Shown: positions 48,080 through 55,660 of the stretch, piece by piece
Layout: each line of letters opens with the position of its first letter
Position numbering within the stretch: the stretch's first letter is position 1
Source of the DNA: Acidobacteriota bacterium
GTDB lineage: Bacteria; Acidobacteriota; Aminicenantia; Aminicenantales; Saccharicenantaceae
Direction: 5' to 3'
NCBI GenBank assembly: GCA_029553365.1
Contig: JAKPCG010000233.1
Coordinates: 1 to 57,837 of the forward strand
Length of the DNA stretch: 57,837 nt
Translations under genes and position numbers: made by a program
The notes under the pieces: generated by a model
Seen by the model: only the letters and a program-made list of their open reading frames with translations
What the model was told of the DNA's origin: nothing
The model's database searches: none

Positions 48080-50197
48080 ATGGATAAAGAAAATTTAAAA
48101 ATTACGGCCATAACTGCCGAAGATCTGGCTGTAATTGAACAGGAATTGACCAGGACCAATCGGCCTTTGACTACTGCTGAACTGGCAGAAAAGCTGGCTT
48201 TCGCCAAGACGGCCAGTGAACGGCATCAGGCGGTCAAAATTTATGATCCCAATGCCCGCTACGAAATTGGCGATTTTATCTATAAAGAATATGATGAAAA
48301 TCTTCAGGTCGGCAGCAAAGCTACCGAGCATTTTCAGGGCGGAGTGGTACTAAAAGTAATTAATAAGACCAGACTGCCCAATTTTCCTTATGAAATGCTG
48401 GAAGTTGATTACGACGGAGGAGGGCCCTTCCGCCGTTATCTGGACTACATGAAAAAGACCAAAACTGAGGTGTTGTTGCCTTCCAATCCTGAGGGGCAGG
48501 GAAAAGAACCGGAGATTCTGGGGGAAGAACGTGATCCGAGGCAGACCGAACTGCCCATGACCGAAAAAGATATAAAGACCTTAGAGCGAAACTTAAGGAA
48601 AGCCCTGAGTGGTTCCGCAGTTTTCTTCAGCTGGAATGATTTCTGGCAACTCAGTTCAAAAAGAATTGAAATCCCGGAAGAGAAAATTAAAGAAATTTCG
48701 GAGGAGCTGGCTGCCAGCAAAACTTCTATCTCGAGCGAAGAGATAGTTAAAAAGTATTTTGGCCTTGAGCCATCCAGCGATCTCTTTGAACTCTATTGCC
48801 TGTCCTTAAATTTTTTGCTCGAGAAGAAATATCGCAAAGATTTTATCTGTCTTTCAACCAGAAACTGGGGTAAGTGGCACCTGAAGAGTGTGCTCAATAA
48901 GCTACCTGAAGGCCTACCTATCTCCAGCCCTCTGGCTCCGGTACCTGATCTTGGACAGGGAGAAGGCCTGCAATATACCAGAGTTGATTCTTTCCCCTTT
49001 AAAGTTTATCTGACCTGGCGAGAAATTCTGTCCGGCGCCGTTCGCCTGCCACGCAGTCTCTCCCGTGAATTCACCTCCCGAGAATATCAGTTCGTTGATG
49101 ATGAGGACGGCAAATCCTATACTGTTTACTATTACCCCGAGGGTAATTTTCTTCTCGGACTGGCTGAGTATTTTCAGACCAATAATATTCCCCAGGGAAC
49201 AAGCCTGACCATTAACCGTAAAGCTGAAGACACTTTTACCTTCTGGATCAAAAAGTCCAAGAAGAAAACAGCTACATACCAACTGGAATATGATTCTGCC
49301 ACCGGACACTTTAGCCTGGGTCACGGAGAGGTCTTTACTCTGGCTATGGCCAACAAAAGCCTTAATCTCGATCGGGAAATTGTTGCCCACCTTTTGACCA
49401 TGCAGGATGAAAGTCAGGATCTGGATTTGAGGCAATTGCTGGTTAAGGTCTTTAAGACGCCAGAGCTGACAGGTAATAACCGGTCGCTGCATTTTCTGCG
49501 GGCCTATCACCTGGTGGACCTGCTGCGGGCAACAACGGCCGAAGATGTTGAATATGTCCTTAATAATGCACCTGAATTTGTGGCGTCGGAGAAAAAAGAA
49601 GGGATTTATATTTACCAGGAATCCCTTGAACCAAAGGAGGTTCCGGTTGAGGAAGAGAAGGCGGCGTCCTCTTTTCTCGAATCTCTGGCCGAGCAACTGG
49701 CTGGTAGCCGAGCCGAGGCCGAGATAACCATGAGTCAGGAAAGTGCAGCTCCCGAAGAGCAACAAGGTGCCGGGGTCGAAGAGGTGGCAGAAGAAATCCA
49801 GATAGAAACAGTTGCGCCTCCGCCCCAGGAAGCTGAGATTAAAGTTACACTTGAACCCGTTAAGAAAGAGAAAACCAGAGAAACAGAGAAAGAAGGAAAA
49901 CCAGGCAAAAAGAAAAAAGAACCGATGGAAGACAAGAAATTCAAGTCAAAAAAAAGTGATCGCCGTTTGATTGAAGAAAGAATTGTCGAAGAAGAATCTG
50001 AAATAGAAGCGCTGGAAGCAGTCAAGGCTCAGCAGGAAGAAACAGAAGAAGCCGAAGCAGAAAATAAAACTATCCAGGTTGAGCTGGAAGCAGCCAAGCA
50101 AGAAGCTAAATTTGGTTTCTTTGCAGAAATGTTGAAATCAGCTTTGACCAAGAAACAGCCGGAACAAAAAGAAGAAGAGAAGGAAGAAAAAAAATAG
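48080..50197 (+). CDS. Uncharacterised 705-aa protein with acidic/basic low-complexity C-terminus
   Basis: N-terminal wHTH-like LTTAELAEKLAFA + KIYDPNARYEIGDFIYKEY; central YQFVDDEDGKSYTVYYYPEGNFLLGLAEYFQTNNIPQGTSLTI; C-terminal about 180 aa E/K-rich. Confidence 0.8.
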   Translation: MDKENLKITAITAEDLAVIEQELTRTNRPLTTAELAEKLAFAKTASERHQAVKIYDPNARYEIGDFIYKEYDENLQVGSKATEHFQGGVVLKVINKTRLPNFPYEMLEVDYDGGGPFRRYLDYMKKTKTEVLLPSNPEGQGKEPEILGEERDPRQTELPMTEKDIKTLERNLRKALSGSAVFFSWNDFWQLSSKRIEIPEEKIKEISEELAASKTSISSEEIVKKYFGLEPSSDLFELYCLSLNFLLEKKYRKDFICLSTRNWGKWHLKSVLNKLPEGLPISSPLAPVPDLGQGEGLQYTRVDSFPFKVYLTWREILSGAVRLPRSLSREFTSREYQFVDDEDGKSYTVYYYPEGNFLLGLAEYFQTNNIPQGTSLTINRKAEDTFTFWIKKSKKKTATYQLEYDSATGHFSLGHGEVFTLAMANKSLNLDREIVAHLLTMQDESQDLDLRQLLVKVFKTPELTGNNRSLHFLRAYHLVDLLRATTAEDVEYVLNNAPEFVASEKKEGIYIYQESLEPKEVPVEEEKAASSFLESLAEQLAGSRAEAEITMSQESAAPEEQQGAGVEEVAEEIQIETVAPPPQEAEIKVTLEPVKKEKTRETEKEGKPGKKKKEPMEDKKFKSKKSDRRLIEERIVEEESEIEALEAVKAQQEETEEAEAENKTIQVELEAAKQEAKFGFFAEMLKSALTKKQPEQKEEEKEEKK

Positions 50198-50220: not shown

Positions 50221-51324
50221 CTAGAGGATTATCCTTTTCGAGCCACTGCGCCGGGTAAGGCCCAGTTCATCCAGAAATTCGAGCAGCGGGATGGCATATT
50301 TTCTGGATAAGCCGGTCAATTTTTTAAACTCGCCAACGGTTAATTCTCTCTGACCACTTTTTTTCCTTTTTTCCAGTTCTTTTTTGATCTCTTCCAGCCA
50401 GCTGGCATGAAGAATAAAACCATCCTGACTTTCGACTACTTTCTTTTTCTGGAGAAGGAGCTCAACCATCGTTTCGAGGCGTTGAGGGTGAACCTTAAAT
50501 TTTCTGGCCAGCTCTTCCAGAGAAGAGGCAGAAAACTTCTGTTCCAGAAGCATCTTCTCAATGGCCTGCATGATTTCATCTTCTTCTTTAGATAGGCTGG
50601 TTTCGAAACCGTGTTGCCGGACCTGTTCTCCGCTTATTTCCACCTGCCCGTCCTTGATGAGGCGGTTCAAAGCCAGCAGCAGAACAGGCCTGGGCAGCCT
50701 GAATCTCTCCTGGACCTTTTTAATTTCTGGACCGGTTTCGGCTGGTCGCCGCTGATGATAATCTTCAATGAAGCTCAACATTCTGGTCAGCAGAAAGTCA
50801 AAGCTTTTCCTGCTCAGAAGAAAAAGTGGAGAAAATTCCAGAATAAAAAGCTGCCCCTCCTTTTCGAGCTCCAGGGCTAATTGAGAAAGCTCCGAAGAGG
50901 ATAGCCGGCAAAAATCTTCCAGCTCTTTTTCCCTCAAACCTTGAAGGCCAGCTTCTTCGGTTAGGGCCAGCAGCATGGCTTTCTCATCAGCAGCATATTG
51001 GTCAAGCCGCTCGACGAGTTTTTCTTCTCGTTTGATTTTTGTCAGCTGATTGGCCAGTGGATAGATGACCCGAGCCGAGACAGGCTGGTTAAAACCAGGA
51101 AGCTTAATTTGAAGATTATCTCCCCATCTGAGCTCAAAAGGCAGCCTGGCTTTTATCTTTAAATAAGGCACCTTAGATTTTTTTGACGGCAGCTTACCCG
51201 GCTCGATTTTGGCCTGAAATTGTCCCTGGTTGACCAGAATCTGACCTGAGCGCTGTTCTTCTCCAGACAGCTCCAGCCATTCTCCACTGGGCAGGACATA
51301 AAAAACTGTTTCAACGGAAGTCAT
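50221..51324 (-). CDS. SelB C-terminal (winged-helix) domain-like protein lacking the GTPase domain
   Basis: C-terminus FKKLTGLSRKYAIPLLEFLDELGLTRRSGSKRIIL matches the SelB winged-helix signature; N-terminal ARLPFELRWGDNLQIKLPGFNQPVSARVIYP resembles SelB domain III; no G1-G5 GTPase motifs. Confidence 0.78.
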   Translation of the reverse strand: MTSVETVFYVLPSGEWLELSGEEQRSGQILVNQGQFQAKIEPGKLPSKKSKVPYLKIKARLPFELRWGDNLQIKLPGFNQPVSARVIYPLANQLTKIKREEKLVERLDQYAADEKAMLLALTEEAGLQGLREKELEDFCRLSSSELSQLALELEKEGQLFILEFSPLFLLSRKSFDFLLTRMLSFIEDYHQRRPAETGPEIKKVQERFRLPRPVLLLALNRLIKDGQVEISGEQVRQHGFETSLSKEEDEIMQAIEKMLLEQKFSASSLEELARKFKVHPQRLETMVELLLQKKKVVESQDGFILHASWLEEIKKELEKRKKSGQRELTVGEFKKLTGLSRKYAIPLLEFLDELGLTRRSGSKRIIL

Positions 51325-51342
51325 TTTCGCTTCTCATCATCT

Positions 51343-53418
51343 CTAATCAATCTTTTCAGCCAGGACGAATTCTACCTTTTTAAGAATGGGGTTACAGCTA
51401 ACCATCCTGACTCTAACTTTTTCGCCGAGGGAGAAAGTTACTCCACTTTGCCGGCCGCGCAGAGTTTTTTCATCTCTTCGCAAAAAGTAATCATCGCCCA
51501 GAGCGGAGTAAGGTATCAGTCCATCTATAAAGTAATCGTCAAGTTCAACCACCAGTCCAGCCCGGTTAATGTCGGTTATGATCCCGACGAATTCTTCACC
51601 CAGCTTATTTTTCAGGAGGCGGAGGATTCTCCACTGAATAAGAGCTCTTTCTGCTTCATCGGCCAGCCTTTCGCGCTGGGAGCAATGCAAGGCGATATCA
51701 GCCAGGGGTAGAGGTCTCGGTTTTTTCCTGGCCAGCGCTCTTTTGAGGAGACGATGAACAGTCAAATCGGGATAGCGACGAATAGGTGAGGTAAAGTGGG
51801 TGTAAACGGGCAGAGCCAGGCCGAAATGACCACAATTTTTATCTGAATAGACGGCCAGGCGCATGGCTCTCAGGACCTGAATGGTAATAAATTTTTCCTC
51901 AGGCTTGCCTTTAAAGCTCTCGATAATTTTCTGGAGATCAGCCGATTTAATCTGACTGGCCCGGGGCAGTTCCAGTCCGAAATGGACCAGCAGGCTTTTT
52001 AATTTTTCCAGGTCGGAGCGAGTCGGAGCAGGATGAACACGGTAAATACAACCATAATTATGTTCACTTAGATAAGTGGCAACGGCCACATTGGCGGCCA
52101 GCATGAATTCCTCCACGAGGCCATGAGCTTCGTTTCGCTCCGAAGGGACAACTGCCGTCAGTAATCCTTCCCGATAAACGAGTTCAGGTTCGAGCAAATC
52201 AAAATCAAGGCTGCCCTGGCGCAGACGCTTTCTTTTAAGAATCCGGGCCAGATGCCTCATAAGAAAAAGATCGTCAAGAAGATGCTGATAGCGATGTCGT
52301 TCTTCCGGGTCGCCCTGAAAGATTTTGAAAACCGAAGTATAGGTCATTCTTTCTGCTGTCTGAATAACCGAGGGGTGGAAATCACTCTGCAGAATTTCAC
52401 CCCGATCATCTATTTCCATGAGGGCAGAAACGGTGAGACGTGGTACCCTCGGCCTTAAGCTGCACAGATCGTTGGATAATTTTTCCGGCAGCATGGGTAG
52501 CGTCAGATCAGGAAAATAAACGCTGGTACCACGCTGGTAGGCCTCGCGGTCAAGAGCTGAACCCGGCCGGACATAATGCGAGACATCGGCAATATGGACG
52601 CCCAGCAGATAATGCCCGTTGCTCAGTTTCCTGATGCTGACTGCATCATCAAAGTCCTGGGCTTTCTCCCCATCTATGGTGACTGTCGTCCAGTTTCTGT
52701 AATCGGCCCGCCCCTCAAAATCTTGAGGCCCGGGCTCAGTCGGCAGAGCAACTGCCTCAGCCAGGGTCTCGCCAGCAAATTGTTCAAACAGGTTGTGTTG
52801 ATTGATAACCACCTTCAGATCCACTCCTGGTTCATCCTGGTAGCCAAGTACTTTTCTGACTTCCAGGCTGGTGCGGTCAATTTCCACAATTTGCCCTGGT
52901 TGTGGCTTTTTGCGGCTCTTAACTTTAACCAGAAACGGTTCTTCATGGATGGTATCCATTGGCAGAACAAATGGCTGATAATTTATCTCAAGGTACAGGC
53001 CGAAGATAGATGTTCGTCCCCTCTTTAAAATCCTGGTTACCCGTCCTTCGGTTTTCCCTTTTTGTCCTTCTGCTTTGACCAGGACTTCAACCAGGTCACC
53101 GGTTAGAGCGCCTGCTGTCTGTCCGGGCGGAATAAAAATATCCTCAGTACCCCCTTCGGCTGTTTCCGGCGTGACAAAAGCAAAACCACGCTTGTTTAAG
53201 GAGATGGTTCCTCTGATAACCTTATTCCGGGGCAAAGGCATAACCAGGTCACCCTTCAGTTTAAGCTGTCCCTGTTTTTCCAGATATCTGACCAGCCCTT
53301 TTAATTTCCTTTTCTCGCCTTTATTGAGCTTCAGGACCCGCCCTAACCTTTCCAGGCTGATTGGCTTTCTATTTTTTTCTAAATATTCAATTATTTCTTT
53401 TTCCATGTTTTTTTCCAT
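51343..53418 (-). CDS. rnr: Ribonuclease R
   Basis: TIDGEKAQDFDDAVSIRKLSNGHYLLGVHIADVSHYVRPGSALDREAYQRGTSVYFPDLTLPMLPEKLSNDLCSL; YTHFTSPIRRYPDLTVHRLL; S1 domain at C-terminus. Confidence 0.97.
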   Translation of the reverse strand: MEKNMEKEIIEYLEKNRKPISLERLGRVLKLNKGEKRKLKGLVRYLEKQGQLKLKGDLVMPLPRNKVIRGTISLNKRGFAFVTPETAEGGTEDIFIPPGQTAGALTGDLVEVLVKAEGQKGKTEGRVTRILKRGRTSIFGLYLEINYQPFVLPMDTIHEEPFLVKVKSRKKPQPGQIVEIDRTSLEVRKVLGYQDEPGVDLKVVINQHNLFEQFAGETLAEAVALPTEPGPQDFEGRADYRNWTTVTIDGEKAQDFDDAVSIRKLSNGHYLLGVHIADVSHYVRPGSALDREAYQRGTSVYFPDLTLPMLPEKLSNDLCSLRPRVPRLTVSALMEIDDRGEILQSDFHPSVIQTAERMTYTSVFKIFQGDPEERHRYQHLLDDLFLMRHLARILKRKRLRQGSLDFDLLEPELVYREGLLTAVVPSERNEAHGLVEEFMLAANVAVATYLSEHNYGCIYRVHPAPTRSDLEKLKSLLVHFGLELPRASQIKSADLQKIIESFKGKPEEKFITIQVLRAMRLAVYSDKNCGHFGLALPVYTHFTSPIRRYPDLTVHRLLKRALARKKPRPLPLADIALHCSQRERLADEAERALIQWRILRLLKNKLGEEFVGIITDINRAGLVVELDDYFIDGLIPYSALGDDYFLRRDEKTLRGRQSGVTFSLGEKVRVRMVSCNPILKKVEFVLAEKID

Positions 53419-53458: not shown

Positions 53459-54097
53459 TCAATAATAAAAAAGAGAGACATAGGGAAGATGATAAAGCTG
53501 TCTCTTCTCTTTGACCAGCCTCGTCTGCAGAATTTCGGTCAGAGCCGCCTCTGGCTTGCCTGGAAATTCCCGTCGAATCTCCTTTAAGCCAGTCTTTTTC
53601 TCTTCCTCCAGAATAAGCTGGAAGATTAGCCGGTCAATTTCCTCATCCAGTTCTTCGAGTTTATTTTCATCCGGTTCGCTATTATTTAGAATGTCCAGAG
53701 CTATTTTATATGATTCCCTAAGCTTCTCCAATTCGGCCGGCAGTCCGCTGAGGAAAGCTTCTATCTCTGCCCTGGCTTTATTTATTTTTTTATCAGGTTC
53801 AATCTGAGGTGAGGCCTGACCGATAAGCCTTTCCTGATAGCTCGCATAAGCTTTTAAGACCTCTCTTTCACATTGGCTGAGTGAATAGATATTTCTCCTT
53901 TTTTTTCTTTTGAGCTGTCTGGCAAAAGTCCGGTCAATGCCCTCCAGAATTGGCTCCAGTGGTATGCCCAGCTTTTCCCAGTCGGAGATGAGAGCCAGGT
54001 CAGGCGGTGGCAGAAAAAACATGCTGGTCTGATGCCTTAAAAAGCGGCGGGCAATCTCCTGGTAATAGTACTGGCGGCTGACCTCATCCTGAGTCAT
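53459..54097 (-). CDS. Hypothetical protein (212 aa)
   Basis: Long ORF overlapping coaX by 4 nt in the same operon; helical; no family recognised. Confidence 0.65.
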   Translation of the reverse strand: MTQDEVSRQYYYQEIARRFLRHQTSMFFLPPPDLALISDWEKLGIPLEPILEGIDRTFARQLKRKKRRNIYSLSQCEREVLKAYASYQERLIGQASPQIEPDKKINKARAEIEAFLSGLPAELEKLRESYKIALDILNNSEPDENKLEELDEEIDRLIFQLILEEEKKTGLKEIRREFPGKPEAALTEILQTRLVKEKRQLYHLPYVSLFYY

Positions 54098-54873
54098 TTT
54101 TTCTCCCGAGGGCGGTTTTTCTCATAGAGTAGCTGCAAACCTGCCAGTACCAGATTTGGTTCAAAATGATCTATTGCCTTAATATCAGAGGCGATAAGCT
54201 CAGCCTGACCGCCGGTAGCTACAATCACCGGTTTTGTCTGGAGTTCGGCTGACATCTCATTGATAATTTGATTGACCAATCCGATATAGCCAAAGTAGAG
54301 TCCTGACTGCATGCTGGAGACAGTATTCCGGCCGATAGCTGCCCTGGGCTTTTTGATTTCAATCCGTGGTAAACGGGCTGTTCGCAAATACAGGGCCTCA
54401 GCTGAGATTTGAATGCCAGGGGCAATTGATCCACCCAGATATTCGCCGGCGGCTGAGACAGCATCAAAAGTGGTGGCTGTCCCAAAATCAACGATAAGGC
54501 AGGGACCTCCATACTTTTTATAGGCAGCGTAAGCAGCCACAATCCGGTCTGGACCAACCTCGGCCGGATTCTCATAAAGAATTGGTATGCCGGTTTTAAG
54601 TCCCGGTCCAACCAGCAGTGGTTTGACCTTGAAAAATTTCTCCATCGCCTGCTCGATAACAGGCGTGATAGGCGGAACCACGGAAGAAATAATGGCTCCC
54701 TTAATTTTCTGGCAGGAAAGCTTTTTGTATCCGAGCAGGTTACAAAGAATCAGCCCATATTCATCCGCAGTTTTTTCCCGGTCGCTTTTTATTTTCCAGT
54801 TGACCAGCAACTTTTTACCCCGAAAAATGCCAAGAGCAATGGTTGTATTGCCGATATCAAAAGTCATAATCAT
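54094..54873 (-). CDS. coaX: Type III pantothenate kinase
   Basis: MTFDIGNTTIALGIF, GAIISSVVPPITPVIEQAM, GPDRIVAAYAAYKKYGGPCLIVDFGTATTFDAVSAAGEYLGGSIAPGI, VIATGGQAELIA. Confidence 0.97.
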   Translation of the reverse strand: MIMTFDIGNTTIALGIFRGKKLLVNWKIKSDREKTADEYGLILCNLLGYKKLSCQKIKGAIISSVVPPITPVIEQAMEKFFKVKPLLVGPGLKTGIPILYENPAEVGPDRIVAAYAAYKKYGGPCLIVDFGTATTFDAVSAAGEYLGGSIAPGIQISAEALYLRTARLPRIEIKKPRAAIGRNTVSSMQSGLYFGYIGLVNQIINEMSAELQTKPVIVATGGQAELIASDIKAIDHFEPNLVLAGLQLLYEKNRPREKK

Positions 54874-54907
54874 CGTTTTCTCCTGGTCACGGTTTCAATT
54901 TATCACT

Positions 54908-55660
54908 TCAACCTAACACTCTCACTATTTCTGAGCCATAGTATTTTTTACTCTCCTGGCCGATTTGAAGAATTAAGCTCCCATCCTGAGCAAGACCGCT
55001 AAACTGGCCTGAGACCTCTCCTTCTCGCTCTTTAATAATCAGAGTCTGACCCGGAGAAAAGGAAAGCCTGGCCTCAAATCTGCGGACAATTAATTTTGCT
55101 TGCCCTTCTTTGAGCTTATTATACCAGAACTGAAATCTCTTACCAAGGAGCTGGAACAATTCTTCCGGTTGATAAGTTTTTCCGGTGATAAGAAGAAGCG
55201 AAGTAGCCAGCCCTGCTACTTCTTCGGGAAAATCTTCCTGCCGATGGTTAAGATTTACCCCGAAGCCGGCAATGACCTCAGCTTGACCGGTTTGTAAGGT
55301 CTCTGCCTCGCACAAAATCCCACCGATCTTTTTGCCTTTAAAGAGAAGATCATTAGGCCATTTTAGACTGATATCCACCCTGGCCAGCTCCTCTAGAGCC
55401 TCGGCTGCAGCCAGCCCGCCAGCCAATGGCAGAAGATGTAAAAACCCTGCCGGCGGCCGTAGCAGAAAAGATACATACAATCCCTTTTTAGCTGATGAAT
55501 GCCACGGGCGGCCTTTGGTGCCACGACCGGCTGTTTGCTCATCGGCCAGAACTGCTGTTCCCTCCGGAAAGCCGAGTCTGGCCAGCAGGCGACCAAAATT
55601 CATAGTCGAGTCCAGACTAGAAAATCTAAAGGATAGCTCGCCAAAGTTTATGGCACCCAT
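54908..55660 (-). CDS. birA: Biotin-[acetyl-CoA-carboxylase] ligase (no N-terminal HTH)
   Basis: LDSTMNFGRLLAR, VLADEQTAGRGTKGRPWHSSAKKGLYVSFLLRP, LKWPNDLLFKGKKIGGILCEAE, GFGVNLNH. Confidence 0.95.
   Translation of the reverse strand: MGAINFGELSFRFSSLDSTMNFGRLLARLGFPEGTAVLADEQTAGRGTKGRPWHSSAKKGLYVSFLLRPPAGFLHLLPLAGGLAAAEALEELARVDISLKWPNDLLFKGKKIGGILCEAETLQTGQAEVIAGFGVNLNHRQEDFPEEVAGLATSLLLITGKTYQPEELFQLLGKRFQFWYNKLKEGQAKLIVRRFEARLSFSPGQTLIIKEREGEVSGQFSGLAQDGSLILQIGQESKKYYGSEIVRVLG

Follow-up and report, generated by a model that had tools for sequence, protein, structure and literature searches.

A SelB-derived protein without the GTPase domain is kept across a class of Acidobacteriota independently of selenocysteine

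During the delivery cycle of bacterial SelB, domain 4 holds the contact with the SECIS element throughout (PMC5311926). Here, we describe SBC, a stand-alone protein that shares with SelB (TIGR00475; structures 4zu9 and 5lzb) domain III and four winged helices in the same order, as well as the RKY motif of the fourth winged helix (WH4), but that differs from SelB in lacking the GTPase, domain II and any dependence on tRNA-Sec. GTPase-free winged-helix arrays with the SBC fold have been studied as C-terminal fragments of SelB (1lva, 1wsu, 2uwm and 2ply from Moorella; 2pjp from Escherichia coli), and several of these are SECIS-bound; however, the fragments are laboratory pieces, while SBC is naturally encoded, has an additional barrel and occurs in organisms in which no selenocysteine (Sec) machinery was found. 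Among published families, archaeal aSelBL comes closest; it is a SelB relative that is kept where Sec is not used, and in which the GTPase is degraded and the C-terminal SECIS-binding domain is lost (PMC3037878). SBC resembles aSelBL in being a SelB relative kept without Sec use; nevertheless, the two are mirror images, aSelBL keeping domains I-III and SBC only the C-terminal half, and SBC complements the archaeal family. That winged-helix arrays can sit on ribosomes is known from UFL1/DDRGK1 on the 60S subunit (8qfc, 8ohd), which has serial winged helices and weak Foldseek similarity to SBC (3e-4 to 7e-4); however, it is a eukaryotic UFMylation ligase, the TM-score is 0.21, and there is no evidence of homology beyond the winged helices. 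In the literature searched, we found no account of a family of stand-alone SelB C-terminal proteins. SBC represents the mRNA-binding half of SelB as a natural, universally kept gene that lacks the GTPase and belongs to organisms without selenocysteine use, and makes the range of recognition by SelB domain 4 directly testable.

The window, i.e., the whole stretch of 57,837 nucleotides that was analysed, contains the SBC gene and its neighbours as listed in Table 1; an Rfam scan of the window gave tRNA-Val only. An earlier note on this DNA, made from the letters alone, had described the 367-aa ORF, quoted its SelB motif and placed its start 18 nt after rnr. All three were confirmed, the motif being exact; the strand, which was left unstated there, is the minus strand, and rnr lies on the same strand. 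The 705-aa protein encoded convergently to SBC has no confident Pfam or NCBIfam family; its gene adjoins arcB across the class and is convergent with the SBC gene.

Table 1. Coordinates of SBC, its domains and its neighbours in the window
Feature	Position	Strand	Basis or remark
705-aa protein, convergent neighbour of SBC	48080..50197	+	Kept in relatives; outside the SBC system
SBC (stand-alone SelB domain III + WH1-4 protein), CDS	50221..51324	-	367 aa, ATG start; reads 51324..50221
SBC winged helix 4, aa 307-367	50224..50406	-	Pfam SelB-wing_3 1.2e-17; most conserved domain
Codons of R341-K342, start of WH4 recognition helix	50299..50304	-	Invariant in 31-sequence alignment
SBC winged helix 3, aa 241-306	50407..50604	-	AF2 model; phmmer alignment to 1wsu/1lva
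SBC winged helix 2, aa 172-240	50605..50811	-	Pfam SelB-wing_2 2.3e-7; AF2 model
SBC linker + winged helix 1, aa 96-171	50812..51039	-	AF2 secondary structure; Foldseek 1lva, 2v9v
SBC N-terminal beta-barrel, aa 1-95	51040..51324	-	SelB domain III homologue (hhalign); six strands in AF2 model
Spacer, rnr stop to SBC start	51325..51342	-	18 nt
rnr, RNase R, 691 aa, upstream neighbour of SBC	51343..53418	-	TIGR02063 696 bits (cut-off 598); PF00773 3.9e-114
Conserved genes upstream of rnr	53459..55660	-	Order common to relatives
212-aa protein between coaX and rnr	53459-54097	-	Without known family; kept across order
coaX	54094-54873	-
birA-like gene	54908-55660	-

The same note had read the protein as a SelB C-terminal region without the GTPase, with an N-terminus like the last SelB beta-barrel, serial winged helices in the middle and a SelB winged-helix motif at the end, and this reading was borne out by Pfam, phmmer, hhalign, AlphaFold2 (AF2) and Foldseek. 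Both Pfam matches in SBC, SelB-wing_3 and SelB-wing_2, are above the Pfam cut-offs, and the SECIS-type winged helix is retained at the C-terminus; by comparison, NCBIfam selB (TIGR00475) gives SBC 37.7 bits with a cut-off of 242. Among PDB sequences, phmmer matched SBC best to 1lva, the C-terminal fragment of Moorella SelB (8.8e-23, aa 124-366). A family profile (A1) built from 31 SBC relatives aligned colinearly with 17 full-length SelB proteins from domain III to the C-terminus (hhalign, 100%, 1.9e-43). Against a wider SelB set, the barrel alone matched domain III with an hhalign score of 58 and a probability of 95%, while 20 column-shuffled control profiles scored at most 15 with probabilities below 0.3%; the barrel is degenerate. 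The AF2 model consists of the barrel and four winged helices (mean pLDDT 89.3), and its top Foldseek match is SelB on the 70S ribosome (5lzb_z, 2.9e-15, 367 columns), with 1lva, full-length SelB (4zu9) and the fragments 2uwm, 2ply and 1wsu as further top matches. An EF-Tu-like GTPase domain I with a P-loop is absent from the SBC ORF, and so is the domain II barrel, the hhalign alignment starting at SelB domain III. SBC therefore shares with SelB the domain III barrel and the four C-terminal winged helices with the SECIS-binding-type WH4 motif, while neither the GTPase nor an association with the Sec trait was found when tested, and we conclude that SBC is a derivative of SelB and not a SelB.

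SBC is widespread in its own class, probably Aminicenantia. In the search of relatives, 97 of 100 genomes had an SBC match, the other three being 77-83% complete; in one further genome, G085, the sole match sits in a full SelB. With profile A1, a match was present in all 101 genomes searched of the class. The stand-alone matches are in short ORFs, most of which span 256-500 aa between stops, the exceptions being fragments at contig edges, longer ORFs in which the upstream frame is open by chance, and one fusion to pgi (see below). Among ~142 genomes of other Acidobacteriota classes, matches were in ORFs long enough for SelB (~590 aa or more), apart from short pieces in G151 and G167 that are probably contig-end fragments. 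Within Acidobacteriota, stand-alone SBC occurs in its own class, and the other classes yielded full-length SelB only, these pieces aside. The genome studied here is 74.5% complete and has a single SelB-wing_3 match; the claim that the gene is not a 5'-truncated SelB at this locus holds. Phage families gave no SBC match. Matches on plasmids were weak (22-27% identity over about half of the query); four of 12 lie under annotated selB genes and the rest where no gene is listed.

In phylogenies, the SBC proteins fall into a single clade separate from SelB (support 100/95 with 57 versus 33 rows, and 100/99 with a smaller set), and we conclude that SBC has a single origin, which dates to the base of the class or earlier. 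The AU test comparing an origin inside the class's own SelB with one from an older SelB gave p = 0.55 and favoured neither. SBC occurs in three forms: 467-471 aa in family f10, the common form of 350-390 aa, and a form of ~258 aa in families f2 and f7 and genus g14 that consists of winged helices only. Upstream of the last form, no barrel remnants were found. Domain III is degenerate and dispensable, and its loss without a remnant suggests that the function resides in the winged helices. The Foldseek alignments of the f10 form cover 443-464 columns for SelB and ~195 columns for EF-Tu (domains II-III), suggesting that this form may keep a second barrel (domain II); however, this is suggestive only, because the N-terminus of the 471-aa protein has low pLDDT and gave no significant hhalign match on its own.

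The dN/dS ratio of SBC is 0.12-0.15 between close relatives (0.06 for rnr), and SBC is under purifying selection. WH4 is net positive and has a mean majority-residue frequency of 0.72 compared with 0.36-0.55 in the other parts of the protein; R341, K342, P346, E349, L351, D352 and T357 are invariant. In the alignment with Moorella SelB, the counterparts of R341-K342 are R606-K607 (numbered after the 1lva/2v9v fragments), of which R606 is, we assume, a SECIS contact. The conserved WH4 residues are consistent with the binding of a SECIS or other RNA hairpin predicted for SBC; the conservation of WH4 could also be structural. In family f11, most of SBC outside WH4 is very divergent, and its function may have drifted there.

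We consider it probable that SBC is a structured-RNA clamp that derives from SelB, acts through WH4 and is kept as a Sec-independent housekeeping gene, plausibly one linked to translation. According to this model, SBC, a SelB derivative that has kept domain III and the four-winged-helix domain 4 but not the GTPase, would work as SelB domain 4 does: R341-K342 and the rest of the conserved recognition helix would let WH4 grip a structured RNA (a hairpin), while WH1-3 would serve as a bent spacer or scaffold. In the absence of a GTPase, SBC would not deliver tRNA in the manner of EF-Tu and would instead act as a stable clamp, the target of which would plausibly be an rRNA or mRNA hairpin met in translation. 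That GTPase-free pieces of SelB were solved with SECIS RNA (2uwm, 2ply, 1wsu) argues that this region can bind RNA on its own, and by analogy with SelB we infer RNA binding by SBC in a ribosome or translation context. The near-universal presence of SBC in the class, even where Sec machinery is lacking, suggests that the RNA-gripping part of SelB is reused for another job. More speculatively, SBC may be a previously undescribed, class-wide translation- or ribosome-associated clamp on a conserved hairpin outside Sec decoding, with the series from the f10 form via domain III plus winged helices to winged helices only reflecting the stepwise conversion of a translation factor into an RNA-binding protein; we regard this wider scenario as possible, with the odds somewhat against it.

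The neighbourhood of SBC bears on a suggestion of the earlier note, in which the position of SBC, co-directional with rnr, was taken to mean that SBC perhaps directs RNA decay or binds ribosomes. As an RNase R adaptor, SBC would be translationally coupled to rnr and would tether RNase R to structured RNA or the 30S subunit. Across its own order, SBC is kept directly downstream of rnr in the arrangement valS-birA-coaX-(212-aa protein)-rnr-SBC, convergent with the 705-aa gene, arcB and arcC, and roughly half of the loci in this order show a 4-nt overlap of the rnr stop with the SBC start. RNase R itself is known to act on 30S subunits and on ribosomes bound to tmRNA (PMC12320835). Moreover, the long K/R-rich C-terminal tail of f10 RNase R (L113, L114, L118) is mostly short or missing where rnr adjoins SBC. 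However, the adjacency holds for the order and not for the class: in the basal families f9, f10 and f12, pgi lies between the two genes (rnr-pgi-SBC) and SBC is coupled to pgi; in f8, the arrangement is pgi-SBC with rnr elsewhere; and in f11, SBC lies in an unrelated neighbourhood. In 10 of 15 f11 genomes, no RNB-domain gene (RNase R/II-type) was detected, while SBC is kept in all 15, and in G082 SBC was kept after rnr had gone from the operon, the only RNB protein being a distant one encoded elsewhere. We found no partner gene of SBC that is conserved across the whole class. The intervening pgi, the f8 and f11 loci and the f11 genomes in which no RNB-domain gene was detected make an obligatory partnership with RNase R unlikely, and the decay proposal is weakened to the point that we judge an adaptor role unlikely overall, although the conserved rnr-SBC co-expression is compatible with a helper role in the own order.

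Three further observations were made at these loci. A genome without any RNB-domain exoribonuclease is unusual for bacteria; the 10 f11 genomes concerned are 86-96% complete (e.g., G387, G402, G477, G178 and G220 among f11). Five f11 genomes, all from a single genus, encode an RNB protein that is shorter and distant. In G465 (f8), a single 889-aa ORF (L119:4989-7658) comprises phosphoglucose isomerase (PF00342) and SBC; this may be a true fusion or reflect a misassembly where stop and start codons overlap.

Besides RNA, winged helices can bind protein and, commonly, DNA, and SBC has weak Pfam similarity to FeoC and Rrf2; it might accordingly be a transcription regulator that reuses its winged helices on DNA. 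We consider this improbable, because the whole-length fold match of SBC is SelB, DNA-binding matches such as TFIIIC (8cli) superpose poorly (rmsd >20), the conserved WH4 is the part that contacts RNA in SelB, and none of the SBC neighbours are typical of a regulator and its target.

In the clamp model that we favour, SBC functions apart from Sec. A Sec-related function, as a decoding helper or as a competitor of SelB on SECIS elements, could be argued from the WH4 motif that SBC and SelB have in common and from relatives with selA, tRNA-Sec and full SelB that carry SBC beside the latter; the P-loop of these true SelBs is GHIDHGK[ST] or GHVDHGKT. However, all 19 genomes of the own genus have SBC, while none of the 19 has selA, a full SelB or a SelB GTPase half, and no selA was found in the f8-f12 genomes searched. 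With a query of SelB domains I-II, the best matches in the 19 genomes are of EF-Tu length (402 aa; 36-38% identity), and the remaining ones are longer translation GTPases, one of them IF-2, and short fragments; thus, a complementary GTPase half encoded elsewhere, which would have spoken against the reading of the earlier note, was not found in the genus. The tRNA-Sec model RF01852 gave matches in all genomes, including 14 of 14 controls, and weak matches (51-bit in the genus) therefore carry no information; the three loci checked in the genus are tRNA-Ser(UGA), in contrast to the true tRNA-Sec(UCA) of a Sec-using relative. Because SBC is kept in lineages without Sec genes, a Sec role is largely refuted as its general function, and we regard it as very improbable. 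We conclude that SBC is independent of selenocysteine and that a SelB-wing match (PF09107) should not be equated with the selenocysteine trait in annotation.

Finally, the series from the GTPase-less f10 form to winged helices only resembles progressive erosion, but the presence of SBC in each of the 101 class genomes searched, its dN/dS, the conserved gene order and the invariant WH4 residues make a functionless, decaying remnant of an old selB scarcely credible. The full-length SelBs of the own order (L073-L091) form a clade of their own with a divergent WH4 motif (SRKYAxAxLEYFD, compared with RKYAIPLLE in other Acidobacteriota), and on the basis of these sequences, horizontal acquisition of this SelB is possible.
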